Source of the DNA: a virus
DNA: 47,184 nt
Virus record (IMG/VR): IMGVR_UViG_3300020057_000051
Location: 1-47,184 of that record
Strand: one strand, 5' to 3'
The position numbers and the translations under genes were made by a program. A model generated the notes under the pieces. The model was not told the DNA's origin, did no database searches, and saw only the letters and a list, made by a program, of their open reading frames with translations. Shown in pieces: positions 9,656-26,078 of the stretch (position 1 is its first letter; every line of letters begins with the position of its first letter).

Positions 9656-9744
9656 AGTCGGGGTTGCCGCTCATTGCCGCATGATCGCCACATCCGAAAA
9701 GATCTGGGCGGAGTACCTCCGCGAAACGGAGCATTGAGGGAGCC

Positions 9745-10047: not shown

Positions 10048-10049
10048 GT

Positions 10050-10726: not shown

Positions 10727-10899
10727 GTGCTCACCCCGCTCCAGCGCATCGCGCCGTGGTTTCCTGGCGCGGATCGACGATGCGTGCCGTCGTGTCCAGG
10801 AGCCAGCTCACAGCGGCGTTCTTGCGTGGTCGGATGCAGCGACGGGTCTGTCTCTGGGCAGCGTTCACTCTTCTCCGCTGGCTTACTCTGCTGCGTCAC
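10723..10899 (-). CDS. Small protein with a Cys-His motif, unknown function
   Basis: 58 residues from GTG 10899, where a GAGG ribosome site is positioned; ATG 10953 would overlap dnaB by about 70 bases. The C-terminal half has CELAPGHDGTHRRSAPGNHG and ends in MRWSGV. The C....GH.G.H...W arrangement recurs in small proteins of GC-rich phages and may bind metal. It lies between dnaB and rusA and is coupled to rusA by ATGA. Function unknown. Confidence 0.55.
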   Translation of the reverse strand: MTQQSKPAEKSERCPETDPSLHPTTQERRCELAPGHDGTHRRSAPGNHGAMRWSGVST

Positions 10900-12253
10900 G
10901 GTCGGCCTCGCTCCAGTTGTGGTCGTACGGCGTTTCACTGCGTTGCTCTCCAATGTCCTCGAAGCGCGTCGACTCGCGCACGAAGCGCACGAGCGCGGTG
11001 TCGGTCGGCCCGTTCTTCTGCTTCGCGATGATGAACTCCGCGCTCAGCTGGTCGGCGTGTGGGTCGTACATCGCGTCGCGGTACATGAACGCGACCACGT
11101 CGGCGTCCTGCTCGATGCTTCCGCTGTCGCGCAGGTCTGAGATCTTCGGTCGGTGATCCTTCACGGTGCGTCCTTCCGGTCCGCGATTGAGCTGCGCGAG
11201 TGCGACGATTGGCACACCGAGTTCCTTCGCGAGCGCTTTGAGACCGCGCGAGATGCGTGCGACCTCTCGCTCACGCGAGGCGCTGTCGTCGCGGTCCGAG
11301 AGCATGAGCTGCAAGAAGTCGATCACGATGAGATCAAGCCCGTGCTTGAGCTTGTGTGCGCGTGCCTTGCGTCGCAGCGTCGCGCCCGATAGTTCGTAGC
11401 CATCGTCGAAGTGCAGCGGCAGCCGGAACAGCGATGCACCTGCGCGCGTCAGCCGATCGAACTCGCGCTGGTCGACGGTGCCCTTTTGCATCTTGGCAAC
11501 GTTGACGCTTGCGTTCATGCACAGCAGCCGATCGCCAAGGTCTTCCTCTTTCGTCTCGAGCGAGAAGAACAGCACGCTCTTGTTCGCGAGCGCGGCGTTC
11601 ACGCACCACCGCGTGACCATCGACGTCTTGCCGCTCGATGGGCGACCGCCGACGACGATGAGTTGCCCTGCTCGCATCGGGTTCAGCACGGCGTCGATCG
11701 CTTCGAATCCGGTGACAACGCCCGGCATCGATGCGCCGTCCATGCGTGCCTCGATGCGTGCGAACGCGCCTTCGACCATCGCGCTCACGTGCGTCGGGCC
11801 CTTCTCGCTCGAGCGCGACGACGCGACCATCGCGAGCTTCGCCGCGGAGTCCGCGAGCTTCTCGCCACGAGCGCCGCTTTGCGCTTCGGCGATGAGCCGA
11901 TGCGCATCGAGGATCACGCGACGTGCGATCGCAAGCTCTGCGATTAGCGCCGCGTGCCGTGCGACGTGCGCCGTCGTCGGGATCTCGTCGGTCAGGTCGC
12001 TGATCGCGCCTTGTCCGCCGACGCCCTCAAGCCTGCCGCGTGAGCGCAGTTCTGCGCCGAGGGTCACCGGGTCGACGGGCTCGCTGCGAGCGAAGAGCGC
12101 GGCCATCGCGGCGAACATGTGCGAGTGCGCCGCGTCGTGGAAGTCCGCGGCGGTGACTACGCCTTCGATCTCGACCCAGGCGGAGTTCTCGAGCAGCACC
12201 GCGGCGAGCACTGAGCGCTCCGCAGGGGCGTCGTGCGGAAGCGGACTAGCCAT
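10883..12253 (-). CDS. dnaB: Replicative DNA helicase, DnaB family
   Basis: 456 residues, the full family length. The N-terminal helical domain (MASPLPHDAPAERSVLAAVL) is followed by a linker and the RecA-like ATPase. Walker A is GGRPSSGKT at 202-210, Walker B is LIVIDFLQLML, and the arginine-finger region contains QDADVVAFMYRD. It would be the hexameric helicase loaded at the phage origin, probably by the initiator-like protein encoded just upstream, whose stop its start overlaps by 8 bases. Confidence 0.95.
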   Translation of the reverse strand: MASPLPHDAPAERSVLAAVLLENSAWVEIEGVVTAADFHDAAHSHMFAAMAALFARSEPVDPVTLGAELRSRGRLEGVGGQGAISDLTDEIPTTAHVARHAALIAELAIARRVILDAHRLIAEAQSGARGEKLADSAAKLAMVASSRSSEKGPTHVSAMVEGAFARIEARMDGASMPGVVTGFEAIDAVLNPMRAGQLIVVGGRPSSGKTSMVTRWCVNAALANKSVLFFSLETKEEDLGDRLLCMNASVNVAKMQKGTVDQREFDRLTRAGASLFRLPLHFDDGYELSGATLRRKARAHKLKHGLDLIVIDFLQLMLSDRDDSASREREVARISRGLKALAKELGVPIVALAQLNRGPEGRTVKDHRPKISDLRDSGSIEQDADVVAFMYRDAMYDPHADQLSAEFIIAKQKNGPTDTALVRFVRESTRFEDIGEQRSETPYDHNWSEADRDAAE

Positions 12254-13520
12254 TGGCTGCCCTCATGGCTTCGCGGGCCCTGCGGGCCTTGTCAGCGATG
12301 GCGGACCGGTCCTGCGCCGATGGCATCGCCGATGTGTTCGTGTGCACCGCGGCGATCTTTGGTCGAGCCTTTGCCTTCCACCCTCGCGCAGCTTCGAGCG
12401 ATCGGATCAGTCCGCGGGCTGCGATGCCTCCGCCGCCATCGTGCTTGCCCAGCAGCGTGCGCATGTTCCAGTCGCCGTCCCACCAGGTCGCTGCGCCGGC
12501 CTTGACGCATTCGCCAAGGGCAACGAAGTCGGCGAGTGCAAAGCCCTGTCCGGCAAGCGAGCGAAGCACTGCTGCCCACTCGCGTTCGTCCGTGCCGCCC
12601 ATGGCAACCGAGATTCCGCCGGCTGCTAGCGCGTCGCGGGCCGCCCAGTCGTCGATGGGTCCGCGAACGATCGGGCGCTCGACGGTGATCTCCCCGGCGT
12701 CGCTGTCGTCGGCCTTGCTCTCGTCGTCGCGCGCGTCGGATCCACTCCGATCCTCTCCGATCCCTTCGGATCCTATCCCACCAGGAGCCCTCGTCGAGGG
12801 CTCGTCGAGGGCTCGTCGAGGGCTCGGCGAGGGCTCGTCGAGGGCTCGTCGAGGGCTCGCGGGGGTCGCGCTACTTGACTCGTCCGGCCCGGGGCACTTC
12901 GGCTTTGAAGGCTTGTCTATGCGCTGGTGTTTGTTGAAGTTACGCAGCAGGCAGTCGTCGGCCTCGCTCTCGTCGTCGCGCGCGTCGGATCCACTCCGAT
13001 CCTCTCCGATCCCTTCGGATCCTATCCCACCAGGAGCCCTCGACGAGGGCTCCTCGAGGGCTCGTCGAGGGCTCGGCGAGGGCTCGTCGAGGGCTCGTCG
13101 AGGGCTCGTCGAGGGCTCGGCGAGGGCTCGTCGAGGGCTCGTCGAGGGCTCGTCGAGGGTCGCGCTACTTGACTCGTCCGGCCCGGGGCACTTCGGCTTT
13201 GAAGGCTTGTCTATGCGCTGGTGTTTGTTGAAGTTACGCAGCAGGCAGTAATCCTGACCGCGAACCGTGTAAAACTGGACGACGTTGGCTTCGATGAGTT
13301 CGCGCAGCGCCATCGCGACTCGGTCCCGGGTGTTTGTTGACCCGTCTGGGGCGCCCCAGAATACCTGGCCCATGAGGTACCGAGTGTCAGCGCGGAGCCG
13401 TCCTGAGTCGTCCGCGAGGAGGATCATTCCAGTAAACAGCCTGAACGCCCCGTCGGACAATTCGGCAATGCGGGCATCCTCGAGCATCTCTGGCTTGATC
13501 GATCGAATGCGGCCGCTCAC
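12246..13520 (-). CDS. Replication initiator-like protein with internal duplicated repeat region (phage O-like)
   Basis: 424 residues. The N-terminus (RIRSIKPEMLEDARIAELSD, then RLFTGMILLADDSGRLRAD) is the winged-helix region typical of phage replication and DnaD-like proteins. Residues about 112-235 are two copies of one segment (CLLRNFNKHQRIDKPSKPKC ... IGSEGIGEDRSGSDARDD), each containing Pro/Arg/Ser-rich 11-residue repeats such as LDEPSTSPRRA. The C-terminal domain (AARDALAAGGISVAMGGTDE...WWDGDWNMRTLL) probably contacts DnaB. The position directly before dnaB supports a role in initiation. The in-frame duplication is unusual and described separately. Confidence 0.7.
   Translation of the reverse strand: MSGRIRSIKPEMLEDARIAELSDGAFRLFTGMILLADDSGRLRADTRYLMGQVFWGAPDGSTNTRDRVAMALRELIEANVVQFYTVRGQDYCLLRNFNKHQRIDKPSKPKCPGPDESSSATLDEPSTSPRRALAEPSTSPRRALDEPSPSPRRALEEPSSRAPGGIGSEGIGEDRSGSDARDDESEADDCLLRNFNKHQRIDKPSKPKCPGPDESSSATPASPRRALDEPSPSPRRALDEPSTRAPGGIGSEGIGEDRSGSDARDDESKADDSDAGEITVERPIVRGPIDDWAARDALAAGGISVAMGGTDEREWAAVLRSLAGQGFALADFVALGECVKAGAATWWDGDWNMRTLLGKHDGGGGIAARGLIRSLEAARGWKAKARPKIAAVHTNTSAMPSAQDRSAIADKARRAREAMRAANG
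12705..12953. repeat. Large direct repeat, copy 1 (249 bp)
   Basis: The segment begins GTCGTCGGCCT, passes through the shared GTCGGATCCACTCCGATCC block and an 11-bp array, and ends TACGCAGCAGGC. It is followed at once by a second, longer copy (12954-13249). Outside the arrays the copies are almost identical. Both lie in frame in the initiator-like gene. Confidence 0.9.
12793..12858. repeat. Tandem 11-bp repeat array 1 (6 units)
   Basis: Six head-to-tail copies of GTCGAGGGCTC, one with GG in place of GT at its start (12826-12836). Because 11 is not a multiple of 3, three units encode one 11-residue protein repeat on the minus strand. The period is close to one turn of B-DNA. Candidate initiator-binding iterons or simply an expanded minisatellite. 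Confidence 0.85.
12954..13249. repeat. Large direct repeat, copy 2 (296 bp)
   Basis: Second copy of the segment at 12705-12953. It is longer by four 11-bp units plus one base (45 bases, 15 codons), which keeps the reading frame. The shared 3' block contains CTTGACTCGTCCGGCCCGGG and ends GCAGCAGGCAGT. Confidence 0.9.
13042..13151. repeat. Tandem 11-bp repeat array 2 (10 units plus a partial)
   Basis: Ten copies of GTCGAGGGCTC with variants GACGAGGGCTC and CTCGAGGGCTC at the left edge and two GGCGAGGGCTC units (13075-13085 and 13119-13129), then a partial unit. The GG variants sit four units apart, which suggests expansion by duplication of multi-unit blocks. Confidence 0.85.
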
Positions 13521-14278
13521 AAAGCACCTCCAACGATGGACCGCAGGGCAATGCGCAAGCGCTCGACCTGTTGCCGATTAAGTTTCGAAGCTAGCCGCAC
13601 GATCTGCGCGACGGGATCAGATTTCTGATCAAGCATCTCGCGCACACGTTCGTTCACCTCGCGCTGCACTCGCGGCTTCTCAAGCTCCATTGCTGGCCGC
13701 GTCGTGGAACGCACCGCCTCGGTCACTTCTGCGATCCGCGCCGCCTGCTCGGGCGATGGACGGTCAGGGCCCAGCTTCGCCGCGACCTTCTGCCCAATGA
13801 GCCCGTCGCGATACAGCTGCTGAATCGGCTGTGGTGCGCGGAGGATTGCGCGGAGCAAAGGAGCGGTGTGATCACGTGTAAACTCCGTCGACTCGGTAGA
13901 CGTTGTTTTGTTCCCTCTGCCTGGCCCCGCCTTTGGTTCCTGCGCTGGCCTCACCGTCTCCAGCTGCACCGCGCGTTTGCCGTGAAGGGCTTCGAGGTAC
14001 GGGACAATCTCGGTGTATGGGCGGCCAAGGCCCCACGGCTCTGCGGCCTCGCAGAATTCCTCGAAGGTCTTGAACCGTCCGCCGTCCTGGCGGTTCATTA
14101 GCGTCCACGCGCGGTGCTCCTGGCAAAGGCGGACGTAACCCTCGAAGCGCTCTGGCGCCTTTGGGAGATTTTTCACAATCGACTGCATCTCGAGGCGCAC
14201 CCGCTGTGCCCACACCTCCGTACCAATTGGTGCGTTGACGACTTCGCCGCCTGGATCCGAGAATGCCCTGGCGTTCAT
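13517..14278 (-). CDS. Probable DNA-binding replication accessory protein, unknown family
   Basis: 253 residues, start ATG 14278 coupled to the helicase gene upstream (ATGA), stop overlapping the initiator-like gene. Residues about 45-110 contain aromatic, helical sequence (RFKTFEEFCEAAEPWGLGRP, then YLEALHGK). The second half has HTH-like helices (IQQLYRDGLIGQKVAAKLGP then SPEQAARIAEVTEAV), in the style of ParB/KorB-like helix pairs. The C-terminus is basic and helical. Its place between helicase and initiator suggests a role in replication initiation; the family is not established. Confidence 0.55.
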   Translation of the reverse strand: MNARAFSDPGGEVVNAPIGTEVWAQRVRLEMQSIVKNLPKAPERFEGYVRLCQEHRAWTLMNRQDGGRFKTFEEFCEAAEPWGLGRPYTEIVPYLEALHGKRAVQLETVRPAQEPKAGPGRGNKTTSTESTEFTRDHTAPLLRAILRAPQPIQQLYRDGLIGQKVAAKLGPDRPSPEQAARIAEVTEAVRSTTRPAMELEKPRVQREVNERVREMLDQKSDPVAQIVRLASKLNRQQVERLRIALRSIVGGAL

Positions 14279-16170
14279 GTGCCGGTGCCTTCTTCGACTT
14301 CGGAGACGAGGAAGTTCAGCACGCGCTGAAGCTCTGAAACTCCCATCTCCTCGCGTGACTTCCCGAAGTGCCGAAGCAGCATCTTGTTTGTCGTGCCGAA
14401 TTGGAAAGCCCGCTGCCTATCGCGTGCAGTGCATACGCCCTGAATCTTCTTTCGCAGGCTCGCTTCGTCGTCGACCGGCGGCGCCACTGGCGGTGCCGTG
14501 TTTGATGGAGCGAGGGAGAACCACGTTCGGACCGCACGCATGATGTCTTCGGCTGGAGCGTGTGCGAGCGACGGCATCGACTTACGGACTTCCTCAACGC
14601 GGCGCGAATCATCGGAACTCATACGGCCATCAAAGGTGCCGTGTGAGATTGACCCCTCGTCAGCCCCCAGAGCTGCGAAGATCGATTCCTGCCGCGGCGC
14701 AGCGGCTGACGCTGGCGGATCGCGTTCGTCGCGCTCGCGAATACCGTCGGCTTGTTCCGCCTTCATCCGATCAACGACCTCGCGCATGCGAATGTCGTCA
14801 GGCACAAACACGAAGGCGAACTGGCGTGCGTACTCGATCCCGGCCGCCGTTGCTTTGTAGTCAACTCGCGTCACACGAGCGAACGCTTGTTCCAACCACG
14901 GCACTGATCGAGTGTTGGTCAGACAGAGAAGGTGCGAACAGTCCGGAACGTCGAGCCCCTCGTATGCCATGCCGACGGTAACAAGCACCTTGCCGCGCTT
15001 GCCCTGTCGGAACTGCTTCAACGTTCGCTGCGAGTCAGCATCCTCGGAGATCGCGAGTGCGACCTGAACGCGATAGACCGAAGCGATGAACTCCCGCACT
15101 TCCTTCGCGTGTGTCTGGTTCGCGCAGATAACGATCGCTCGTGACGGGTAGACGTTGGCCGAGTGCGCCATCCAGTGATCGAGACCGCGTCGCAGGAACG
15201 CTTCGCGGTACTCAGTCCGCCCGAGAAACGTCGCGATGACTTTGCTAACGTCTTCGTCTAGGGCTTTCGAGATCTCGACGCGGCGCTCCTCACCACCGTC
15301 GCAGAAGTGCGCCCATCCATCTACATAGGTGAAGTGGATCGGCAGGACGGACCGCTCCTTGAGAGCATCACGTCGTTTGTACTCGACATGAACAGCCGGA
15401 AACCGGCGTCCGTCGCGTTCGGTGTAGTCAATGAAAGGAATTGGTTCGCCATCGTGGCGCTCGATTGTGCCGGTCATCAGCAGAACGTGAGCAGCCCGGT
15501 CGAACAGCGGACGGATCGCGCGTACCCAAGCGCGGCCATCTGCGTCTGCCATATGGTGCGGCTCGTCGAGCACCAGAAGATACTTGCCGCGATCAAGTTC
15601 GTCCCGATGCAGCTCAGGGCATGCAGAAACGCCTTGATACGTGGTTGTGTACGCGATGCAGCCAAGCGCCTCGTCTCGAATGAGCGGCGGCGTGTTGTCC
15701 GCACGACGAGCGCGGAATGCTGGATTGTGCTCCGCATCCCAAAAACCCTCGGCTGCCTGCGCCGCGAGTGAGGTGCGGGGCGTGACCCAGCACACCCGAT
15801 CGGCAATACCCTGTTCAATCAGAACGCGAGCGAATACCGCCGCAGCCAATGACTTGCCGCCGCCGGGCGTCACTTCGGCGACCGTGACTCGATCCTTCGT
15901 CCGACCGCTCGCGATATCGGCAGCGCGCTCGCGAAGATCCTGCTGATGCTGACGTAGCTCCCTCGGCATCGTGGCCCCTTTCTTCAAGTTGCATCGACCG
16001 CAGAGCGCGGCCATTTCGTGAACATTCGTGCGCCGCGTAACCGTCCACGGCTTCGTGTGATCTGCGTGCCATCCGGCCTGCAGATCGACGCCGCAGCGCT
16101 GGCAGTGACCGCGTGCAGAGATCCAGAGCGCGGCGCGTAATCGCTTTGACGTAAGAGCCCTTCCACTCAC
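14275..16170 (-). CDS. HNH endonuclease-SF2 helicase fusion
   Basis: 631 residues from GTG 16170, coupled by GTGA to the gene upstream. Residues 20-65 form an HNH module: C23 and C26, HADH at 35-38, and CGRCN at 57-61. The superfamily 2 helicase follows: motif I TPGGGKS (101-107), motif II DEPH (202-205), motif III-like LLMTGTIE, and C-terminal motifs with GMAYEGLDVPD and QAFARVTRVD. The helicase should unwind or translocate on DNA using ATP; the HNH part may nick or cut it. Neighbours are replication genes, so a role at origins, forks or branched DNA is inferred. Longer upstream readings have shadow composition. Confidence 0.85.
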   Translation of the reverse strand: MSGRALTSKRLRAALWISARGHCQRCGVDLQAGWHADHTKPWTVTRRTNVHEMAALCGRCNLKKGATMPRELRQHQQDLRERAADIASGRTKDRVTVAEVTPGGGKSLAAAVFARVLIEQGIADRVCWVTPRTSLAAQAAEGFWDAEHNPAFRARRADNTPPLIRDEALGCIAYTTTYQGVSACPELHRDELDRGKYLLVLDEPHHMADADGRAWVRAIRPLFDRAAHVLLMTGTIERHDGEPIPFIDYTERDGRRFPAVHVEYKRRDALKERSVLPIHFTYVDGWAHFCDGGEERRVEISKALDEDVSKVIATFLGRTEYREAFLRRGLDHWMAHSANVYPSRAIVICANQTHAKEVREFIASVYRVQVALAISEDADSQRTLKQFRQGKRGKVLVTVGMAYEGLDVPDCSHLLCLTNTRSVPWLEQAFARVTRVDYKATAAGIEYARQFAFVFVPDDIRMREVVDRMKAEQADGIRERDERDPPASAAAPRQESIFAALGADEGSISHGTFDGRMSSDDSRRVEEVRKSMPSLAHAPAEDIMRAVRTWFSLAPSNTAPPVAPPVDDEASLRKKIQGVCTARDRQRAFQFGTTNKMLLRHFGKSREEMGVSELQRVLNFLVSEVEEGTGT

Positions 16171-16376
16171 TTCGCTCGCCTCCCGTTCGCTGCCCGCACC
16201 GAGGCCCACGCCGCCTGCACATCGGCCGCCGTCGCCAAAGCTCCGCCCATCACGAGCGCACGCTGCGCAGGCACACGGATCGCGTCCGCGAGCTGCTCTG
16301 CGCGCTCGTGTTTCACCAGTGAGCGGCTCTGTCGCCGCTCGCGTCTCCGCGCTTGCAGCGCTTGGCGGGCGCTCAT
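16167..16376 (-). CDS. Small basic helical protein, unknown function
   Basis: 69 residues from ATG 16376 (MSARQALQARRRERRQSRSL). It is rich in Arg at the N-terminus, with a helical C-terminal half (AAWASVRAANGRRAK). The upstream frame remains open but loses gene-like composition, and 16377-16572 is comparatively AT-rich and appears non-coding. It is coupled to the HNH-helicase gene by GTGA and could be a nucleic-acid-binding partner. An earlier ATG (MVPIAGRAM) is possible. Confidence 0.5.
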   Translation of the reverse strand: MSARQALQARRRERRQSRSLVKHERAEQLADAIRVPAQRALVMGGALATAADVQAAWASVRAANGRRAK

Positions 16377-16572
16377 TGCGCGACCCGCAATTGGCACCAT
16401 GCCTGAACAATTTCGGTTTGGCAGGAGGCGCTGAAATTTTGTGTTCGCGTCATTGTCGACAGAACACCCGCCGCACTGCTGCGACACGACGAATTTGCCG
16501 AGGATTCGTGCTGTTCGCGTGCGTCTCGTGGTGCCGCGTTGAGTTGACAGAAGCTCGTGCTTTTTGTTGCGC

Positions 16573-17094
16573 TCACTTCTCCACCTCCGGTCCTTGACGC
16601 TTCGCGTTATGCTTCGCGGTGTCCTCGCGCCGGCAGGCGATGCACTTGCGCTGGCCGTAGTGCCCGAAGGCGACGTAATCGCCGTACTCGTGGCCTCGAG
16701 CGCAGTGCGTTCTCGCCAGACCGCGAGCGCGTGCGGCCTCGAGGCGCTCGGTGCTGATGCTGTTGCTCGCAAGCGTGCTGCCCACGCTGACCGCTGCCGC
16801 GCCTGCGGCTGGCCGACGCGTCAAAGCAACGGGATTGTTTGCGAGGCTCGTGTTTCTCGGCGGCGACGCACCAACGCGCTCGAGTACGCTGTGCCCCTGC
16901 GAGCAATCGCGGCATAGCGCCAGCGTCTCTGACTTGCTGATGCTCTTGCCGTCGCCGTTGGTGAGTACCCGGCTATCGCGCTGGCGATCAGCGCACACAC
17001 CGGCGCGGCAGATCACCCTTAGCTGCACGCAGCGAATGCGATCCGATCGCGAGGTGAGCGCCTCGGCTGGAACCCATTCCAGCTCCGCGCTCAC
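16573..17094 (-). CDS. Zinc-finger / HNH-like small protein
   Basis: 173 residues from ATG 17094 (ATGA overlap upstream). It has several Cys/His pairs: CRDCSQGH in the middle, and CARGHEYGDY followed by RKCIACRRE near the C-terminus. The latter arrangement, H-x-Y then CxxC with a basic tail, is common in small HNH or zinc-finger proteins of GC-rich phages that bind DNA. A complete HNH active site is not evident, so it may be only a zinc-binding protein. It stands alone before a 196-base gap. Confidence 0.55.
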   Translation of the reverse strand: MSAELEWVPAEALTSRSDRIRCVQLRVICRAGVCADRQRDSRVLTNGDGKSISKSETLALCRDCSQGHSVLERVGASPPRNTSLANNPVALTRRPAAGAAAVSVGSTLASNSISTERLEAARARGLARTHCARGHEYGDYVAFGHYGQRKCIACRREDTAKHNAKRQGPEVEK

Positions 17095-17351
17095 GAGTGC
17101 ACCGCCGCTTCGAGCGCATCGACAGCTAGCAGCAAAGCTGCGACGCGTCCGGGCTCGGCGATCGCACGCATGCCGGGCGTGAGGCCCTCGAGTTCGTGGA
17201 CGTCGATCAAACAGTCGTAGACGGCCTTAAACTCTGGCGTGTCCCAGCGGCTATGGCCGTCGGTCTTCGCGCGATGGATCGCCTCGCGCGTGTGGCGCAC
17301 TGCGGCGTTCGCGTTGTTCGGACGCGGCGCTGGTGCGAGCTGTGGTCTCAC
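17091..17351 (-). CDS. Small protein, unknown function
   Basis: 86 residues from GTG 17351, overlapping the previous stop (GTGA). The N-terminus is Pro/Asn-rich (RPQLAPAPRPNNANAA); the rest is folded and helical (EFKAVYDCLIDVHELEGLTP, then AALLLAVDALEAAV). It is part of the chain of overlapping small genes after the repressor. No family is recognised. Confidence 0.5.
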   Translation of the reverse strand: MRPQLAPAPRPNNANAAVRHTREAIHRAKTDGHSRWDTPEFKAVYDCLIDVHELEGLTPGMRAIAEPGRVAALLLAVDALEAAVHS

Positions 17352-17575
17352 GCCGACGCTCCGTTCCCGGACCGCATCGCGCTCATCTCGATCTCGTCGA
17401 GCAGGTCTTCGAGCTGGCGAATCTTCGCGCTCAGTCGCGTGAGCACAGCGCGTGCGCCCGGGACCTCGTTGAGCGTGAGCTTGTGGTCCGTGAGCGACCG
17501 CGCGAGTTCGGCGATCGCGTCCGTGCAGTGCACGAGCCCGCTCGTGCACGCGCCCAGCACCGCGAACGCGAGCAT
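17348..17575 (-). CDS. Small protein with possible lipoprotein signal
   Basis: 75 residues from ATG 17575 (TGATG overlap). The start MLAFAVLGACTSG contains a good lipobox (LGAC). An upstream GTG would add Arg residues and make a better signal-peptide n-region. After the Cys comes a helical, heptad-like stretch (LTRLSAKIRQLEDLLDEIEM) predicting a coiled coil. If exported it would be a small membrane-anchored coiled-coil protein; if not, the LGAC is coincidental. Function unknown. Confidence 0.45.
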   Translation of the reverse strand: MLAFAVLGACTSGLVHCTDAIAELARSLTDHKLTLNEVPGARAVLTRLSAKIRQLEDLLDEIEMSAMRSGNGASA

Positions 17576-17790
17576 CACGACGCGCACCCGCACACGCGCC
17601 CGTCGCGCGCGTCGCCGAGCACCACGGCCGAGCCCGCGTCGCCGCAGCGACGGCACTGCGGCGCGTCAGTGAGATTGCGCATGGCCGCGCTTGCACCAAG
17701 TGCGATGCGCGGCCCATGGTGCGACTGCGTCGAAGCGAGCGCGTGATGCGAGCGCGACGCCAGCGGAAGCTGCGTGAAGCGGGGGTGCAT
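17575..17790 (-). CDS. Small CxxC protein, unknown function
   Basis: 71 residues from ATG 17790, right after the upstream stop, with AGAAGG as ribosome site. An alternative start at ATG 17682 would give only the 35-residue C-terminal part. That part has CRRCGDAGSAVV and CGCAS, a single zinc-knuckle-like cluster. The N-terminal 36 residues (Ser/His-rich) look poorly folded. Probably a small metal-binding protein of the early replication block. Confidence 0.4.
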   Translation of the reverse strand: MHPRFTQLPLASRSHHALASTQSHHGPRIALGASAAMRNLTDAPQCRRCGDAGSAVVLGDARDGRVCGCAS

Positions 17791-18348
17791 TTAGGCTGCC
17801 TTCTGGGCGAGCACGCCCCATTCGCGAACAGGGATTCCGTAGAGCCGCTCGACCGCGAGCGCGTCGATCACCGATGGCGCGTTGTCCATGAGGCAGTCGC
17901 GGGCCGGCGCTGGCGTCCTCGCGAGGATGCACGGATCCGCCACGCCGAACTCGACGAGCCGCGCCAGGCGTTCGGCAGCAACGCTGCGAACCATGCGGCC
18001 AGCCGGGATCCATGCGACACGCCTGCGGCCACCGTCGCCGAGCACGATCTCGCGGCCGATGCTGCGGATGGACGCAGGCAGCGCGTTGCAGCTCGCGACG
18101 GTCTCGAGGCGCAGCGCGTCCGCCATCTTGAGCACGCGTTCCGACGGGGCGAACCACTCGCGGCCGATGAGTTCAGCCGCGAACATGTCGTGGAACATCC
18201 GCTCGACCCACTCTTCGCCGGGCCACTCAGCGATGGTCTTCACAACGCAGCCACGCAGCCTCGCAAGCGTGACCACCCGCGAGTGCACGTGGTGCGCGCG
18301 TCCGATCTTGACGGCGCCATCGGCCGCCTGCGCGAAGTAGACACTCAT
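17791..18348 (-). CDS. GIY-YIG-type (T5orf172/Mug113-like) protein
   Basis: 185 residues from ATG 18348, which overlaps the repressor stop (ATGA). Residues 1-75 carry VYFAQAADGAVKIGRAHHVHSR, then LRGCVVKTIAEWPGEEWVER and the downstream LIGREWF. This matches the YF....G.vKIG.t.....R..., ...H..f......EWF pattern of the T5orf172 branch of GIY-YIG nucleases. Phages often fuse this module to DNA-binding parts; here the C-terminal half (about 100-185) is unrecognised. It is co-transcribed with the repressor, so it may act on DNA in the control region or in host takeover. Confidence 0.7.
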   Translation of the reverse strand: MSVYFAQAADGAVKIGRAHHVHSRVVTLARLRGCVVKTIAEWPGEEWVERMFHDMFAAELIGREWFAPSERVLKMADALRLETVASCNALPASIRSIGREIVLGDGGRRRVAWIPAGRMVRSVAAERLARLVEFGVADPCILARTPAPARDCLMDNAPSVIDALAVERLYGIPVREWGVLAQKAA

Positions 18349-18629
18349 TCGCCGCATGCCTTCGCCGCGGTTGATGCGTCTTCATCAGCAACACGCTGCG
18401 CATTCGCCACAGCCTCTCGCTCGCCGCTGATGAGCCATTCGTCTGGCGCGATCAGAGCAAGCGTCGCGATGACGTCGCGCAAGAACAGCTTTGGGCGGCT
18501 CTCGCCCACGAGCCATTCGCTGACGGATGGCTGCGAGATTTTGAGCTGTCCAGCCAGCCACGCCTGGCTTCGGCCTGTTCGCTCCAGATACGCCTTGAGC
18601 CGACGACGGCCCTCGGTGTCGTACTTCAT
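18345..18629 (-). CDS. XRE-family repressor (CI/Cro-like)
   Basis: 94 residues from ATG 18629 (MKYDTEGRRRLKAYLERTG). The HTH is SQAWLAGQLKISQPSVSEWL, followed by VGESRPKLFLRDVIATLALI. There is no C-terminal peptidase domain, so it is shorter than lambda CI. The start at 18629 fits a promoter whose -10 ends 8 bases away, making the mRNA essentially leaderless as for lambda cI from PRM; ATG at 18647 would fall inside that promoter. Operator-like repeats lie beside this promoter and in the rightward early promoter. It could be the lysogeny repressor or a Cro-like protein. Confidence 0.75.
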   Translation of the reverse strand: MKYDTEGRRRLKAYLERTGRSQAWLAGQLKISQPSVSEWLVGESRPKLFLRDVIATLALIAPDEWLISGEREAVANAQRVADEDASTAAKACGE

Positions 18630-18636
18630 GATCGAA

Positions 18637-18665
18637 TAGGTATGCATTTGCCACTTGATCGTCAA
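18637..18665 (-). promoter_or_regulatory. Promoter of the repressor/leftward unit
   Basis: On the minus strand TTGACG (18665-18660) is followed after exactly 17 bases by TACCTA (18642-18637). Transcription would start at about 18630, one or two bases before ATG 18629. The -10 overlaps a degenerate half-site (ATAGGTATGC on the plus strand) related to the operator at 18674-18688, so the repressor may control its own gene. Confidence 0.65.
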
Positions 18666-18673
18666 GCCGAAAC

Positions 18674-18688
18674 TACAGGCTTACCTAT
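18674..18688. promoter_or_regulatory. Operator-like site near the repressor promoter
   Basis: TACAGGCTTACCTAT is an imperfect dyad (ACAGG-CTTA-CCTAT). Its reverse complement shares 13 consecutive bases, AGGTAAGCCTGTA, with the site inside the rightward early promoter 2.4 kb away. A shared dyad at two divergent control points is the hallmark of a phage repressor operator. Confidence 0.7.
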
Positions 18689-18820
18689 CGATCGGTCAGC
18701 TGGCGGGTGTATGTTCGTCGTGTACGATGCTGGTCGGTACCGGGTTGTTACCGCGTACCAGATGTCCCATGAAAAGGCAGAGTCCGCTCTTTCTCGGTGG
18801 GTACCCAGGCGATCAATCTG

Positions 18821-19183
18821 ATGAATATTACTCCAGAAGAGTTTCTCCGCAGTCTCGAAGAGAGCGTCAGGGAACTTCCCAGCGTGCTCCGAGAGTGGGA
18901 CCAGATCGACGGAGACTTGCGCGTCGAGTACGCAGACCAGCTCGCGTGGCTGCTCGACCACGAGCAGGAGGCGCTCGAACGCGCACGCAAGCACGGCAAC
19001 GTTCGTCAGTGGCCGACCGCGATGCGTCTCGCCGTGGCGAATCGCGTATTGTTCGATCTCGCGGATGTCATCCGTGAAAAGATGGGCATTCGTGTCGATG
19101 GCCTAACGCGCGGCCTGACCGCCTCCCCGCACGGCGCGGATGCTCGGGCCGCCGACGAGCCTCAGCTGGCGATGGCAATTTGA
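18821..19183 (+). CDS. Acidic helical protein of the lysogeny region, unknown function
   Basis: 120 residues from ATG 18821 (MNITPEEFLRSLEESVRELP); GTG 18797 is an in-frame alternative. It is largely helical and acidic (EYADQLAWLLDHEQEALERA), then more basic. It is the first plus-strand gene after the repressor promoter region and lies between the two operator-bearing promoters, where genes are often expressed in the lysogen. The upstream stretch 18690-18820 has several GGTAC-containing dyads but no convincing promoter. No family is recognised. Confidence 0.55.
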   Translation: MNITPEEFLRSLEESVRELPSVLREWDQIDGDLRVEYADQLAWLLDHEQEALERARKHGNVRQWPTAMRLAVANRVLFDLADVIREKMGIRVDGLTRGLTASPHGADARAADEPQLAMAI

Positions 19184-19386
19184 TGCGTCGGCACTGTGTC
19201 GATCGCAATGGCAGCGCGTACTTCAAACCCTGCGTTGCCGTCGGGACCTAGCTTCCCTGTCTCGACAACATCGACGACCGCGATCTGAAGTCGCAGAAGA
19301 TACTTCTGCCCGTCCTCTGCCGTAACTTCAACGACAGTCGGCATCCCACTCGAGCTTGAGAACGGAATCGATTTCGGCTCGCTCAT
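19162..19386 (-). CDS. Small beta-rich protein, unknown function
   Basis: 74 residues, ATG 19386 preceded by GGAGG at good spacing. The sequence alternates polar and hydrophobic residues (QKYLLRLQIAVVDVVETG then AGFEVRAAIAIDTVP), predicting beta strands. It converges with the 18821 gene, their 3' ends overlapping by 22 bases. It lies in the lysogeny island. No function is recognised. The 189 bases between its start and the next gene hold only a weak promoter-like TATGAT (19525-19530) and a GC-rich dyad. Confidence 0.55.
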   Translation of the reverse strand: MSEPKSIPFSSSSGMPTVVEVTAEDGQKYLLRLQIAVVDVVETGKLGPDGNAGFEVRAAIAIDTVPTHQIAIAS

Positions 19387-19575
19387 CGTGTACCCACCTC
19401 CATGGTGCCATCCAACGACGTGTCGAGGTACACGAATCGCAAAAACTCATGGACTGGCCGGCGCGGTCGCGCTTGCGCTGCGGCGCAGCCGGCGCAAGAT
19501 TCTGCGTGAGCTTGGTGCTGATGTTATGATCACCAGGATACTTCGAGCATATGCTGAACATATGGAGAGTGCGCC

Positions 19576-20130
19576 ATGCCTCAGCCCATCCATTTCGACG
19601 AGACAAAATTCCAAGAGCTAATGCTCTACATTGCGAAGAAGTGCGAAGCAGATGGCCGCTTCGGTGCGACCAAGCTCAATAAGATTTTGTTCTTCGCTGA
19701 CTTTAGTTCTTACATGGAACGTGGCGTGCCGATCACCGGCGCTGACTACCAGAAACTCGAGCACGGCCCAGCACCCCGTCATTTGATCGCTGCGCGGAAT
19801 GCCCTTGTTGCAAGCGGCGCTGCGCACGAGGTCTCGCGGGCGATGCTGACGCGCTCTCAGCGTCGGCTGGTTGCGACGCGCGATCCAAACCTCTCTCTAT
19901 TTTCCGGCGAAGAGATCGCGATCGTAGACCGCGTCATCGATGACCTGCGCTCGATGACCGCTCAAGAAGTCAGCGATCTTTCGCACGAGCTGCCGGCGTG
20001 GAAACTTGTAGATGTCGGCGAGAGCATTCCGTACTACTTGGCTCTGATTTCGAAGGAGCCGCAGCCGCTGACTGACGACGAGGTTGCATACGGTCAGACG
20101 GTCGCTGCGCAGATCAACGCCGCCGCCTAG
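19576..20130 (+). CDS. Panacea/SocA-like (DUF4065) protein
   Basis: 184 residues, ATG 19576 preceded by GGAGAG. The N-terminal sequence FQELMLYIAKKCEADGRFG, then TKLNKILFFADFSSYMERG, and YQKLEHGPAPRHLIAARNA match the Panacea domain found in SocA-type antitoxins and many phage-borne antitoxins. Such proteins neutralise diverse partner toxins. No obvious toxin is adjacent: the next gene downstream starts directly after the stop and encodes a zinc-ribbon HTH protein. It may be an orphan antitoxin, an anti-defence factor, or act on one of the unknown small proteins nearby. Confidence 0.8.
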   Translation: MPQPIHFDETKFQELMLYIAKKCEADGRFGATKLNKILFFADFSSYMERGVPITGADYQKLEHGPAPRHLIAARNALVASGAAHEVSRAMLTRSQRRLVATRDPNLSLFSGEEIAIVDRVIDDLRSMTAQEVSDLSHELPAWKLVDVGESIPYYLALISKEPQPLTDDEVAYGQTVAAQINAAA

Positions 20131-20667
20131 ATGCGCACCATCGTTGAGCAGCCGCCTGACATCCAATGCCCAATCTGCGGGTCGCCTGACGTCGACCAAC
20201 AGAACGAAGTTCGCACGTATGCTCCGCCGTTCGGCACGCCACACACCTACTCAATCGAGATCGCTCACTGTCGTTCGTGCGGCGAACGCGGCGACTTCCG
20301 CGGCAATGGAAGTAAGGCTGCAGCAGCAGCGATTGAGATTGCAGACCGAGAATCACTTGATGCGATTCTAGGCTCGCTTGCAGCTGACGGTTTTTCTATG
20401 GCGTACATCGAACGCGCGTTGCGATTGCCTGCTCGAACGGTGGCGCGGTGGAAGACCGGCGAGTATTCCAAGGCCGGGCTCGCACTGATGCGAATCGTTC
20501 GCGCGGTGCCGTGGATCTTGGAAGTAGCTGACGCGAATTTTACGCAGCGTGCAGTCAGCGACGCGCTGCTTCCGGCCGCGGTCGATGCACTACGTCGGCG
20601 CGCGCTTGCCGCACCCGATCTCGGGCCCGAGCGTGTATCGCCGAATCGCGCACCTCGCGCTCGCTGA
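20131..20667 (+). CDS. Zinc-ribbon plus HTH regulator (MqsA/YgiT-like layout)
   Basis: 178 residues beginning on the base after the Panacea stop, so likely translated from the same message. CPICGSPDVDQQNEV and the later CRSCGERGD (about 14-55) form a zinc ribbon. The HTH DGFSMAYIERALRLPARTVA then RWKTGEYSKAG follows at about 88-118. This order resembles MqsA/YgiT antitoxins and some transcriptional regulators, but a toxin partner is not visible. The C-terminal tail is Arg/Pro-rich. Together with the Panacea protein it makes a two-gene cassette. Confidence 0.6.
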   Translation: MRTIVEQPPDIQCPICGSPDVDQQNEVRTYAPPFGTPHTYSIEIAHCRSCGERGDFRGNGSKAAAAAIEIADRESLDAILGSLAADGFSMAYIERALRLPARTVARWKTGEYSKAGLALMRIVRAVPWILEVADANFTQRAVSDALLPAAVDALRRRALAAPDLGPERVSPNRAPRAR

Positions 20668-21004
20668 GCATGGGCTCGACCCGCTCGGGGATCCGGAGCA
20701 GCTGGCGCTGGCGGAGGGCCTGCGGGTCTCGTGGCGCGGCGCGAAGGCCGGTTGCGGCATCCACGTGCCTGGGCGCGTCGTCGTGCGCTGGGACGGCGAC
20801 GCACGCGAGCGCGGCCTCGTGATCGCCCACGAGCGCGCGCACCACCACCTGCGCCGCTACGGGGCGCCGCTGGCGAACGAGAGCGACGCCTGGCTAGTGA
20901 CGCTCGAGCTCGTGCTCCCGTGGCGCGAGCGAGCGCGGTGGCCAGAGGCCAGGCATGCGCCCGAATGGCTGATTGGGGTCATGGGCATGCGGAAAGCTGC
21001 GTGA
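20585..21004 (+). CDS. ImmA/IrrE-like metallopeptidase
   Basis: About 139 residues from ATG 20585; GTG 20633 would shorten the 82-base overlap with the preceding gene. The motif VIAHERAHHHL holds HExxH (zinc-binding His and catalytic Glu), followed by NESDAWLVTLELVLP, which supplies the third ligand in the ExxA...LP pattern of the family. ImmA-type proteases cut XRE repressors such as ICEBs1 ImmR to induce mobile elements. Lying just before the early promoter, it is a natural candidate to cleave the repressor at 18345-18629. That target is inference. Confidence 0.7.
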   Translation: MHYVGARLPHPISGPSVYRRIAHLALAEHGLDPLGDPEQLALAEGLRVSWRGAKAGCGIHVPGRVVVRWDGDARERGLVIAHERAHHHLRRYGAPLANESDAWLVTLELVLPWRERARWPEARHAPEWLIGVMGMRKAA

Positions 21005-21048
21005 ATTCGATATGGAAAGGTGAACCAAATAAAACGACCCAGCGATCC

Positions 21049-21077
21049 TTGACAGTCAACAGGTAAGCCTGTACATT
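21049..21077 (+). promoter_or_regulatory. Rightward early promoter
   Basis: TTGACA (21049-21054) is a perfect -35; after 17 bases comes TACATT (21072-21077), four of six matches to the -10 consensus. The expected start is near 21084, giving a leader of about 37 bases before ATG 21121. The operator dyad fills the spacer, so repressor binding would block RNA polymerase. Confidence 0.85.
21059..21072. promoter_or_regulatory. Operator in the early promoter
   Basis: ACAGGTAAGCCTGT is a dyad with perfect five-base arms (ACAGG/CCTGT) around TAAG. It lies between the -35 and -10 and shares 13 consecutive bases (including the next A) with the inverted site at 18674-18686. Confidence 0.8.
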
Positions 21078-21120
21078 CGCTCCACCGCAGCAGGCACTCA
21101 GCCGCCGCGATGGAGCAGCC

Positions 21121-21180
21121 ATGAACCTCTCGAGCACAGTCAAAGCCTTCGCGAAACTCGGCATCGAGGTGTCGCTGTGA
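21121..21180 (+). CDS. 19-residue leader peptide gene
   Basis: ATG 21121 is preceded by GGAGCAGCC and encodes MNLSSTVKAFAKLGIEVSL, then TGA. The stop overlaps the GTG start of the next gene (GTGA). As first frame of the early message it may be a functional micropeptide, or it may exist to couple translation into the next gene. The amphipathic helix character is mild. Confidence 0.5.
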   Translation: MNLSSTVKAFAKLGIEVSL

Positions 21181-21407
21181 CCGGCCCGCTCGTGATCACG
21201 CAGCACGTGTGCGCGGCGTGCGAGTCCGAGATCGTCGCGAGTGCGCACGCCGTGTGCGACTCGTGCGAAGACCGCTGTGAGCACTGCGGGCAGAGCACCG
21301 ACGAGTGCCCGTACGAGTCGCCTCTGGATTGCGAGGAAGCGGACGCCGCGGACTACGGCGGCGAGTGCCGCGCGGAGTCGCTGCGAGAGATGGACGGTGC
21401 GCTGTGA
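21177..21407 (+). CDS. Cys-rich zinc-binding small protein
   Basis: 76 residues from GTG 21177. Four cysteine pairs appear in order: CAAC, CDSC, CEHC and later single Cys residues (DECPYESPLDCEE, GECRAES). The first three resemble a double zinc ribbon. The tail is acidic. It is embedded in the early operon by GTGA overlaps at both ends. A small zinc protein in an early operon might modulate host factors, but no family is recognised. Confidence 0.6.
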   Translation: MTGPLVITQHVCAACESEIVASAHAVCDSCEDRCEHCGQSTDECPYESPLDCEEADAADYGGECRAESLREMDGAL

Positions 21408-21628
21408 TCGCGCTGCACATGGACGCGCTCGAACTCGCGCGGCAGTTTCACCGAAGCCTGGTCGTGCAGTGCGACGAGGCATTGGACCTCGACGAGACAG
21501 ACCGCGCGCATCAGCTCGAGGACGCGGCTGCGTTGCTCGCGAAAGCTGAGGCGTGCCTCTCGGGAAAGCTGGAGCGCACGGAGCCGATGCGTGCGCCGTG
21601 GGTTGAAGGGCTGAGGGCACGCTCGTGA
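21404..21628 (+). CDS. Small helical early protein, unknown function
   Basis: 74 residues from GTG 21404 (overlapping the previous TGA); ATG 21419 is an alternative. It is helical and acidic (MDALELARQFHRSLVVQCDE, then HQLEDAAALLAKAEACL). It is coupled to the following gene by GTGA. No known family is evident. Confidence 0.55.
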   Translation: MIALHMDALELARQFHRSLVVQCDEALDLDETDRAHQLEDAAALLAKAEACLSGKLERTEPMRAPWVEGLRARS

Positions 21629-21825
21629 GCGCGAGCGAATCGAACTATTCGGAATGGCCGAATAGTTGCGGCGTAAGTGCGCGCTGCGACGCAGCGAACG
21701 ACAACGCGGACGACTGGTGGCTCAACGGCGTGCAGCTGCTGGACCTGGGGCCGCCGATGGCGCGGTGGGGCGTGCGGATCAACCGGCAGTGGAAAGCGCC
21801 ACGGGCGCAGATGGGACGTGTGTGA
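21625..21825 (+). CDS. Small early protein, unknown function
   Basis: 66 residues from GTG 21625. The N-terminal part (SASESNYSEWPNSCG) is encoded by the arms of a perfect 10-bp inverted repeat. The rest is Trp-rich (DDWWLNGVQLLDLGPPMARW). Its stop overlaps the recT start (TGATG). Function unknown. Confidence 0.5.
   Translation: MSASESNYSEWPNSCGVSARCDAANDNADDWWLNGVQLLDLGPPMARWGVRINRQWKAPRAQMGRV
21643..21667. repeat. Perfect 10-bp inverted repeat inside an early gene
   Basis: AACTATTCGG and CCGAATAGTT flank a five-base loop (AATGG). It is AT-richer than its surroundings and could form a stable RNA hairpin 18 bases into the small early gene, or be a protein-binding dyad. Confidence 0.75.
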
Positions 21826-22946
21826 TGGCGACGAACGGGATTCAGATTCACGAACACCTAAGTCTCCTACCGCACCTCGGAGAGGTACAGGCGCTCGCGA
21901 AGTCGGCTGCGTCGACTGGCTTCTACGGGATGACCCCCGACCAGGCGCTGATGGTCATGATGCGCGGCATGGAGATGGGTCTCGGCCCGTCGACGTCGCT
22001 CTCAATGTTCGACGTAATCAAGGGCAAGCCCGCGCTCAAGGCCGACGGCCACGTTGCTCTGTGCGTGCGAAAGCAGGAGATCTGCGAGTACTTCACGTGC
22101 GTCGAAAGCACCGACAGCGAGGCTGTCTACGAGACCAAGCGACGCGGCGCACCAAAGCCTGTTCGGTTCTCGTTCACGATTGCGGAAGCGACGCGCGCTG
22201 AGCTTCTCAAGAACGACACCTGGCGCAAGTACCCGAAGACGATGCTGCGTCGGCGATGCGCCGCGATGCTCGCGCGCGACGTGTACCCAGATCTTTGCGG
22301 CGGCCTGCACTCGGACGAGGAAGTGCAGTCATTTGCCGATGAGCCAGCGCAACGCGAGCCCGTGCGCGCCACGGTCACGCAGGCCGCGCCGGTCGTTGAC
22401 GTCGCTGGCGACATCGCGCAGTGGACAAAGCTCTTCGCTGAGTGCGAGACGGTGGCGGATCTCTCGGCGCTCGGGCTCGAGCTGCGCAAGGAGCCCGAGG
22501 CGATCTCGAAGCACCCGCCGTTGCGCAAAGCGTTCGCCGATCGTAAGCGCGTGCTCGAAGGCCGAGAGCCTCCGCCCAACGGCGGCGGTGCACCGAAGCC
22601 AGACGTCGTGGTCGCGACCGAGGCACGCGGCGACGCGTACGAGGGCGAGGACGCAGCGACACAGGCGGTCGCAGTCGCAAGCGGCCCGACGCTCGCGGAG
22701 CAATGGGACGCAGGCACGGTCTCGCGTGAGACCTGGCGGGCGCACCTCGCGACGAAAGACGCGGCGCAGGCCGTGGCCAATAGCTACGCCGCACACGAGC
22801 ACCGCTTCGGCCGCGACAATAAGAAGAGCGTGTTCCGCGGCGTCGCGCTTGATCGGACGCGCGCCCTTGGCGTCGACGATGCCGACGCGTCGGGGATGTT
22901 CGACAAGGCGATCCGCGCGCGTTCGGCGAAGCAGGTCGCGGCGTGA
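21825..22946 (+). CDS. recT: RecT-type single-strand annealing protein
   Basis: 373 residues from ATG 21825. The core MTPDQALMVMMRGMEMGLGP, then STSLSMFDVIKGKPALKADG, and the later WRKYPKTMLRRRCAAMLARD with YPDLCGG...SDEEV follow the order seen in RecT-family annealases: quick start at a substrate-level helix, the alternating beta core, then the conserved W..YP..ML.RR. These proteins coat ssDNA and anneal complementary strands during phage recombination. The C-terminal third (after about 200) is Ala/Pro/Glu-rich and less conserved. It is followed directly by its expected partner exonuclease. Confidence 0.75.
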   Translation: MATNGIQIHEHLSLLPHLGEVQALAKSAASTGFYGMTPDQALMVMMRGMEMGLGPSTSLSMFDVIKGKPALKADGHVALCVRKQEICEYFTCVESTDSEAVYETKRRGAPKPVRFSFTIAEATRAELLKNDTWRKYPKTMLRRRCAAMLARDVYPDLCGGLHSDEEVQSFADEPAQREPVRATVTQAAPVVDVAGDIAQWTKLFAECETVADLSALGLELRKEPEAISKHPPLRKAFADRKRVLEGREPPPNGGGAPKPDVVVATEARGDAYEGEDAATQAVAVASGPTLAEQWDAGTVSRETWRAHLATKDAAQAVANSYAAHEHRFGRDNKKSVFRGVALDRTRALGVDDADASGMFDKAIRARSAKQVAA

Positions 22947-24037
22947 GCAATCAGCCAACAGGCCAGGCCGCGAGACCGACCGCGTCAGGCATTAGCCGCG
23001 CCCACGCGTGCCCAGCGGCGTACGCATTGCCTGCGACGTGGGAGGAATCAGGCCCAGCGGCTTTGCGCGGACAGCACGGCCACACGTTCCTTGAGGCGCT
23101 GCAGTCGACCACGCGCGAGGCAGCGCTAGCCGCTGCACCCGAGGACCTGCGTGAGCAGCTCGCGGCACTCGACGTGAGTAACGTCGCCCGTGGCGATGCG
23201 GAGGTCGGGTTCGCGGTCGACGTACCCACCAATCAGGCAAGACCGCTTGGGCACATCAGCGGCCGAAAGTACCCGACGCTTGCGTTGAGCGAGATTGGCG
23301 GCATCGCGGATCTTGTGGTCGATGGCGGTAGCGGGGTGATCGATTGGAAATTCGGCAACATCGACTACGTCGAGCCTGCGGCAGACTCGCACCAGCTCGC
23401 GTTTCACGCGCTTGCTTTGTCGCGTGTGCACGGCCTCGATAGTGTTCGCGTTGCGATTGCGCACGTCGACCTCGACGCATCACGCATCACCTACGACTGG
23501 CACGAACATGACGCGATGTCACTCGAGTGGATCGCGAACGATTTGCGCGAGATCCACGCGAGCGTACGGAAGGCTCGCGAGCAATTAGCCGCTGGCGTCG
23601 TGCCGCAGACGAACCCAGGCGCGCACTGCAAGTGGTGTCCTGCGGCGAAGGCGTGCCCATCGATGGCTAACGACGCGCGTGCGCTCGCGACCGTGGCCGA
23701 GTCGACGTGGATGGCGCGCGTGAACACCGAGCTTGACGAGCCGGGCGGCATTGAGCGCTGGCACCTGCGGCTCCCAATCCTACGCAGCATCGTCGATGCG
23801 ATCAGCGATGAGGTGCGGGCGCGGGTGAAGGTCGAAGGCCCGATCGCGCTCGCCAACGGCGGCACGCTCACGATCGAGAAGCGCACGCGTTCGAGCACGG
23901 ACCACAAGGCCGTGTTCGCCGAACTCGTCGCGGCGGTCGGTCCCGACGCAGCCGAAGCGATCGCGGCGCAGAGCACGAAGACCACGCACTACGAGCAATT
24001 AACAGAGCGCAAGGCGCGCAAGGGAACGACGACGTGA
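22943..24037 (+). CDS. PD-(D/E)XK exonuclease with Fe-S-type cysteines (Cas4/AddB-like)
   Basis: 364 residues from GTG 22943. The nuclease core shows GGIADLVV (Asp123) and VIDWKFG (Asp134, Lys136), then QLAFHALAL as the helix of motif IV. C23 near the N-terminus and the C-terminal CKWCPAAKAC (C-x2-C-x5-C) match the four-cysteine iron-sulphur signature of Cas4 and AddB nucleases. It likely resects double-stranded DNA to give the ssDNA that the RecT protein anneals, as lambda Exo does for Bet. The genes overlap by GTGA. Confidence 0.8.
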   Translation: MSNQPTGQAARPTASGISRAHACPAAYALPATWEESGPAALRGQHGHTFLEALQSTTREAALAAAPEDLREQLAALDVSNVARGDAEVGFAVDVPTNQARPLGHISGRKYPTLALSEIGGIADLVVDGGSGVIDWKFGNIDYVEPAADSHQLAFHALALSRVHGLDSVRVAIAHVDLDASRITYDWHEHDAMSLEWIANDLREIHASVRKAREQLAAGVVPQTNPGAHCKWCPAAKACPSMANDARALATVAESTWMARVNTELDEPGGIERWHLRLPILRSIVDAISDEVRARVKVEGPIALANGGTLTIEKRTRSSTDHKAVFAELVAAVGPDAAEAIAAQSTKTTHYEQLTERKARKGTTT

Positions 24038-25414: not shown

Positions 25415-25614
25415 TGCGCTGCATTGTGCCTGCAGATGATGGCCCGTGGTTCTACGTCGAGTGCGGGCCTGTCGGCTGCTTGAAGGCGAGCGAGCGAGCG
25501 ATGGCCGCTGAAGACGCGATCACAGCGGCGGTCGACGCCGGGTTCGTCTGCGTGTTTGGCGCGTGGGTTTGCGGTCGGTGCCACGCGGAAAAGCAGCAAG
25601 AGGTTCCACGATGA
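25411..25614 (+). CDS. Small early protein with Cys pairs, unknown function
   Basis: 67 residues from GTG 25411. It has a beta-rich N-terminus (GPWFYVECGPVG) and a C-terminal CGRCHAEKQQ cluster that may bind metal with an earlier Cys. Its last codons overlap the integrase fragment start. It does not supply the missing N-terminal half of that integrase. Confidence 0.5.
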   Translation: MMRCIVPADDGPWFYVECGPVGCLKASERAMAAEDAITAAVDAGFVCVFGAWVCGRCHAEKQQEVPR

Positions 25615-26078
25615 TGCGCCATCTCCTCAGCGACGACGCGCTCGAGATCTTCGCGCGCGAGCTGCGCCAGACGCTCGACGACGGTCCGATGGCCACAGCC
25701 TGGACGTCGAAGGGCAAGCGTGAACGCAAGATCCCCGCGCCCGTAGAGGTGGTCGCAGCGGCGCGAGAGCTAGTCGCTTGGCGCAAGGAGCACAACTGGC
25801 GGCTCTCGGACCACAGCGTCGGCGACAATCTGCGCGACGCCGCGAAGCGCGTTGGGATCACGCTGAGCGGGATGCATGACTTTCGGCGCACGTTCGCGAC
25901 CGAGTGCGTACGCGCCGGGATCGCTCTGACGCAGGTGCAGCAGTGGATGGCGCACCGGTCGATCCGCACGACGCAGCGCTACGCCGACGGCCGCAGGGCC
26001 GACGCGGATGGTCGGTGCGAATCAACGCCGCTTTTACCTCCACACGCGGGGAGGCCTCGTATTGCGACCGAAGCCTAG
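25611..26078 (+). CDS. Tyrosine recombinase catalytic fragment (integrase remnant)
   Basis: 155 residues from ATG 25611 with AGAGG upstream. Visible catalytic boxes: the beta-hairpin Lys region (TAWTSKGKRERKIPAP), HDFRRTFATECVRAG (HxxR), AHRSIRTTQRYAD (box-II His and the nucleophilic Tyr). The core-binding domain and the box-I region with its first catalytic Arg (usual TGxRxxE/GL) are absent, and the protein is less than half normal length. It is probably inactive as an integrase, or works only with a partner. It is the last gene of the early operon, 7 bp before the convergent lysis genes. It suggests a temperate ancestor. Confidence 0.75.
   Translation: MMRHLLSDDALEIFARELRQTLDDGPMATAWTSKGKRERKIPAPVEVVAAARELVAWRKEHNWRLSDHSVGDNLRDAAKRVGITLSGMHDFRRTFATECVRAGIALTQVQQWMAHRSIRTTQRYADGRRADADGRCESTPLLPPHAGRPRIATEA

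Follow-up and report, generated by a model that had tools for sequence, protein, structure and literature searches.

A palindrome present at two divergent early promoters of a phage points to a lambda-type switch with a Cro-like XRE protein

The window analyzed here, a stretch of 47,184 bases that makes up a whole IMG/VR virus record, carries the same putative operator in two early promoters that point in opposite directions. The two copies probably correspond to OR and OL of a lambda-type switch in which the XRE protein is Cro-like, a reading drawn from gene order and promoter position (Table 1). Genetic switches of this layout are well known; the phage group that carries this one is little known.

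Table 1. Features of the control region and of the two early operons, with coordinates in the window.
Feature	Position	Strand	Details
DnaB-like replicative helicase	10883..12253	-	phrog_19 E=2e-95
Replication initiation protein	12246..13520	-	phrog_2149 E=5e-32
HNH + DNA helicase	14275..16410	-	leftward operon
MUG113/T5orf172-type (GIY-YIG-type) protein	17791..18348	-	ATGA overlap with XRE
XRE protein	18345..18647	-	100 aa (ATG 18647) or 94 aa (ATG 18629); HTH regulator, first gene of leftward operon
Degenerate site	18636..18649	+	ATAGGTATGCATTT; 4/14 mismatches to the dyad
Alternative XRE promoter TTGACG-17-TACCTA	18637..18665	-	rank 166; choice of the first-pass annotation
PR-like candidate promoter CTGACC-18-TAGTTT	18670..18699	-	rank 122; site 1 in its spacer
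Site 1 (OR-like putative operator)	18675..18688	-	ATAGGTAAGCCTGT; 13/14 identical to site 2
Gene divergent from XRE	18824..19183	+	in the CI slot of the relatives; helical in low-confidence model
SocA/Panacea antitoxin domain protein	19576..20130	+	PF13274 E=2e-18; cargo between operators
Zn-ribbon + HTH protein	20131..20667	+	distantly MqsA/YgiT-like; TIGR03830 E=9e-4, below cut-off
ImmA/IrrE-like HExxH protein	20549..21004	+	HERAH ... NESDAWLVTLELVLP; uncertain start; lies just upstream of the PL-like promoter
PL-like early promoter TTGACA-17-TACATT	21049..21077	+	rank 1 of 471,540 hexamer pairs; predicted driver of RecT/Exo/integrase operon
Site 2 (OL-like putative operator)	21059..21072	+	ACAGGTAAGCCTGT; perfect 5-bp arms ACAGG-N4-CCTGT
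RecT-like annealing protein	21825..22946	+	phrog_4171 E=4e-16
PD-(D/E)XK exonuclease	22943..24037	+	Pfam PF12705 E=1e-11; phrog_69 E=2e-20
Tyrosine integrase, C-terminal catalytic part	25611..26078	+	155 aa; phrog_216 E=8.5e-17, profile 116-225 of 301

The 13-mer AGGTAAGCCTGTA occurs exactly twice in the record, once per strand (18674-18686, minus; 21061-21073, plus), in mutually inverted orientation, and the positions reported for it in a first-pass annotation of this DNA proved exact. That annotation had suggested a search for further copies; none was found in the 47-kb record within 2 mismatches (the shuffle mean was 0.11, and no shuffle had 2), and a 14-mer search allowing 3 mismatches still picks out just these two sites in the window. 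The dyad reads ACAGG-TAAG-CCTGT at site 2 and ATAGG-TAAG-CCTGT, with a single arm mismatch, at site 1, and the likeness reaches 20 of 24 bases when the two sites are extended. A 13-base match between the two promoter neighborhoods arose in none of 1000 dinucleotide shuffles (the longest was 11 bases), and the similarity of the dyad pair was attained in none of 150. Each promoter has one strong site, the next best matches being near chance level. Viral contigs were scanned for further operator copies with a 15-mer, and five retrieved loci that contain two perfect dyads were then inspected; none of these lies at a phage control region, and most of the copies, among the matches listed, fall in coding sequence. 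The promoter-plus-dyad pattern had 3 matches in viral contigs, and in none of them did the retrieved DNA contain another copy.

Promoters were scored with an approximate sigma-70 matrix, applied to the hexamer pairs of the window. The top-ranked pair, TTGACA-17-TACATT, is also the sole match of a consensus scan in 17000-22500; site 2 lies inside its 17-bp spacer, with the first T of the -10 common to both, which bears out the first-pass description of a near-consensus promoter with the element in its spacer. At the other end, site 1 had been placed beside an XRE promoter, TTGACG-17-TACCTA. The position of the site stands, but the promoter is outranked by CTGACC-18-TAGTTT, which contains the site. 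We take CTGACC-18-TAGTTT to be the likelier XRE promoter of the two because of its slightly better score, its site 2-like register and the same following TTCG: at both sites the operator copy supplies the TA of the -10, and TTCG comes next, a register coincidence with a chance probability of about 0.018 (about 2%), given the shared TA. The location of the operator within early promoters in four relatives (see below) lends support to this choice. The promoter TTGACG-17-TACCTA would yield a near-leaderless mRNA from ATG 18629, and the occurrence of near-leaderless cro starts in some relatives argues in its favor; this possible downstream alternative and the weakness of CTGACC-18-TAGTTT by consensus are both points against our preferred explanation. 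A degenerate half-site had also been described as overlapping the -10 of TTGACG-17-TACCTA. Its mismatch level is reached at 11 other places in the 47 kb, the two main sites aside, and we rejected it as not clearly distinguishable from chance, which is probably its origin.

Leftward from site 1, the genes follow in the order XRE, MUG113/T5orf172, HNH-helicase, replication initiator and DnaB, in a mostly tightly spaced chain with ATGA overlaps, in which no gap up to DnaB exceeds 253 bases; terminase and portal genes lie further along the minus strand, beyond larger gaps after DnaB. The ATGA overlap of the XRE gene with the MUG113/T5orf172 gene suggests that the two are co-transcribed. Rightward from site 2 there are small genes, followed by RecT, the exonuclease and the C-terminal part of the integrase. 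Because XRE heads a replication operon leftward, and RecT, exonuclease and integrase lie rightward, we read the two sites and their promoters as OR/PR and OL/PL, and this gene order in all likelihood puts XRE in the Cro position and excludes it from the CI position. The plan of the genome suggests that the phage is likely temperate, but the integrase, recognizable only as a C-terminal piece and either truncated or encoded by a split gene, weighs against this.

In the proposed mechanism, leftward transcription from PR would cover the Cro-like XRE gene first and the replication genes after it, and PL would transcribe rightward RecT, the exonuclease and the integrase piece. We infer that XRE would bind the dyad; judging from the position of the sites, a dimeric HTH protein on a 14-bp dyad would cover the spacer and block RNA polymerase at either promoter. 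After infection, XRE made from PR would act as Cro and turn down both early operons, its own included, as gene order and the relatives suggest. A lysogeny repressor recognizing the same dyad would be encoded between the sites, with the Zn-ribbon/HTH gene as the HTH-like candidate, and the ImmA-like product may inactivate this repressor on induction. Looping between the sites, which are 2.4 kb apart, is conceivable.

The window has the lambda PR/PL plan in mirror image. Similarly to lambda and the lambdoid phages 434 and P22, two operators on divergent PL and PR flank the immunity genes, with PR leading into a small Cro-type gene and replication genes and PL into recombination genes and integrase. 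The operator of 434 is likewise 14 bp in size. In lambda, OL and OR are ~2.3 kb apart (PMC5880393), a distance close to that found here. While lambda has three operators per promoter, the window has one strong operator at each, so that it is lambda-type by layout and not a strict lambdoid operator array. Moreover, XRE is likened to Cro by position and not by sequence homology, and the CI slot of the window is without a recognizable CI, the region holding Panacea, Zn-ribbon/HTH and ImmA-like genes. A comparable arrangement is found in an annotated phage, Komagataeibacter phage phiKX1 (LC644975), which has a Cro-like XRE gene leftward, CI between, an antirepressor/RecT/integrase operon rightward, and an inverted 13-nt element common to both sides of CI. 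In phiKX1, by contrast, CI is an S24-peptidase repressor, the operators are 0.7 kb apart, RecT is only ~30% identical, and the common element adjoins the -35 of the promoters and is not clearly in their spacers.

RecT served to find related prophages in genomes of the phylum to which a Labilithrix MAG belongs (Myxococcota group). These genomes were reached with an MglA sequence used as a probe only, and the choice of Myxococcota was a hunch from the GC content of the phage and a lipoprotein-like gene. The best RecT relatives in them have 41-45% identity. No relatives of RecT or the GIY-YIG-type protein were found in viral contigs; TerL had none in genome contigs, and its search of viral contigs returned a 99-100% identical 7.6-kb piece without the control region. 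XRE had no relatives in viral contigs or phage collections and just two weak ones in genomes, and the operator could not be traced in a close relative because no close XRE relative was found.

Four of the related prophages (L217, L231, L232, and L234) have an intact control region. In each, a Cro-like XRE gene is followed by an operator, a CI-like HTH gene, in some cases additional genes, an ImmA-like gene, the other operator and the RecT operon. The CI-like HTH gene of these prophages is separate, divergent from the Cro-like XRE and on the opposite side of the operator, and, as read from translations, the Cro operons of L231 and L234 continue into helicase and replication-type genes. In all four, the Cro-side and RecT-side promoter regions have a dyad in common that is specific to the locus: GTTACGCTCGTAAC / GTTACGAAGATAAC in L217, where the promoters rank 2 and 5 of the 199,700 promoter-like pairs in the slice, ACTACGTCCGTAAC / ACTACGTCCGTAAA in L231, ATTACGACGGTAAT / ATTACGCCAGTAAT in L232, and GTAGCAGTAGCTAC, twice, in L234. 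Shuffles reached the observed dyad similarity in 0 of 150 cases for L231 and for L234 and in 1 of 150 for L217; the L232 pair was recognized on inspection and from the presence of three copies within 20 kb. The pair in L222 is suggestive but not significant (13 of 150 shuffles), and L235, with a long enough RecT locus, has no common dyad pair; L221, L233, L236, and L237, all from contig ends, are too short to be judged. In L234 (6679-6728) and L232 (7468-7514), the side of the Cro promoter that faces CI has a second operator copy, 36 bp from the first in L234 and 33 bp in L232, with no clear counterpart in the window.

The four prophages resemble the window in gene order, in the operator-in-promoter design and in the ImmA-like gene beside PL, and differ from it in their operator sequences and in having a separate CI-like HTH gene. 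Their cargo also differs, with a HipA-like kinase and DUF3037 in L217 and a holin-like membrane protein in L231. Thus, prophages that carry RecT in a bacterial group with little-studied temperate phages repeat the lambda layout of one operator per early promoter, each with an operator sequence of its own, which provides ready-made operator predictions.

Between the two sites, the window has no recognizable CI, the weak Zn-ribbon/HTH candidate being the only one. No HTH was found in the 18824-19183 gene, which has no match in 379 Myxococcota-group genomes. Single-sequence structure models of this gene product and of the Zn-ribbon/HTH protein are of low confidence (mean pLDDT 52 and 53, respectively). 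Panacea proteins neutralize many unrelated toxins and occur in prophages (PMC8832971). The ImmA-like protein has no Pfam hit of its own, and its HExxH and acidic third-ligand motif align with the PF06114 protein between the L231 operators; it also has a 32% tblastn match in L232. Among the ImmA-like proteins, L231:6676-7236 alone reaches the Pfam PF06114 score (E=7e-17), while the other calls rest on alignment and HExxH-type motifs, with that of L217 the most divergent.

One refinement of the preferred explanation, compatible with it, is that the Zn-ribbon/HTH protein is the lysogeny repressor and is inactivated by the ImmA-like protein, leaving XRE only the role of Cro. We put this forward tentatively, as somewhat less than an even bet. 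The gene is the sole HTH-like repressor candidate between the operators and sits just upstream of the ImmA-like gene, the place that CI occupies in L234 and L232, but its HTH assignment and structure model are both weak, and its distant relatives in L238 and L239 resemble ordinary antitoxins, so that it may be no more than a companion of the Panacea gene. In ICEBs1 and related ImmR/ImmA modules, an identified XRE repressor is cleaved by ImmA. The window resembles these modules in having a candidate repressor gene near a putative ImmA/IrrE-type metalloprotease gene in its immunity region, whereas cleavage of the repressor is here hypothetical. A broader proposal, in which the lysogeny repressor is this antitoxin-type protein beside the Panacea gene, is controlled by the ImmA-like protease, and forms part of immunity cassettes swapped as blocks between the two promoter operators in this phage group, seems to us doubtful. 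The recurrence of the layout in the relatives makes the repressor question in the window phage directly testable.

The first-pass annotation had named XRE as the immunity repressor, shutting the early operon. One operator common to two early-control promoters does mark this as the switch region, and that part of the claim holds; that XRE is itself the lysogeny repressor, acting at both sites and autoregulating, we consider improbable. XRE is the HTH protein adjoining site 1, the PHROG family that it matches best carries the name 'transcriptional repressor' (phrog_2328, E=3e-8; XRE also matches HTH_31 at E=3.7e-5, below the gathering score), and the window phage is without a clear CI between the sites. 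XRE heads the lytic replication operon, however, so that a lysogen expressing it steadily would turn on the replication genes as well; the four related prophages have a separate CI-like HTH gene, and the absence of a C-terminal domain from this protein of 94-100 aa is Cro-like. The XRE gene at this switch should be called the repressor only after a test, which corrects a likely mis-annotation.

Host-regulated prophage promoters exist, and the dyad could in principle be the site of a host regulator (e.g., the SOS repressor) on both early promoters; we judge this very unlikely because related prophages from a single bacterial order have completely different dyad sequences, as expected for phage-specific immunity. 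Least credible of all is a chance repeat without function: palindrome pairs are common in the GC-rich window (57-130 per shuffled window), and a whole-window count of them is not selective, but both copies lie at early promoters with 13 exact bases in common, which shuffling did not reproduce, and the arrangement recurs in the four relatives.

Several other elements were observed in the window. The XRE/18824 intergenic region contains repeats of GGTCGGTACC and GGTGGGTACCCA at 18732-18741 and 18796-18807, a possible second regulator site, and just upstream of the Panacea gene GAGCATATGCTGAACATATG at 19545-19564 forms a dyad with a direct repeat, possibly a separate autoregulatory site of the Panacea cassette. 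Further rightward, 28842-29709 includes a HicA-like toxin gene beside a gene fusing a MerR-like N-terminus to a HicB-like domain, and a lone MqsA-type HTH gene on the plus strand (39253-39663; TIGR03830 E=1.8e-9, below cut-off) stands amid minus-strand tail-region genes. On the leftward side, the stretch 9660-10190, with an HTH (HigA/HipB-like) gene at 9745-10047 on the plus strand, is missing from contig L122, which is otherwise 99-100% identical; in the window, a 92-bp direct repeat (83% identity) lies on either side of the stretch. Within the replication initiator gene, 12790-13159 holds an 11-bp repeat in two arrays as well as an internal duplication of ~249 bp, giving a repeated SPRRALDEP-type peptide.
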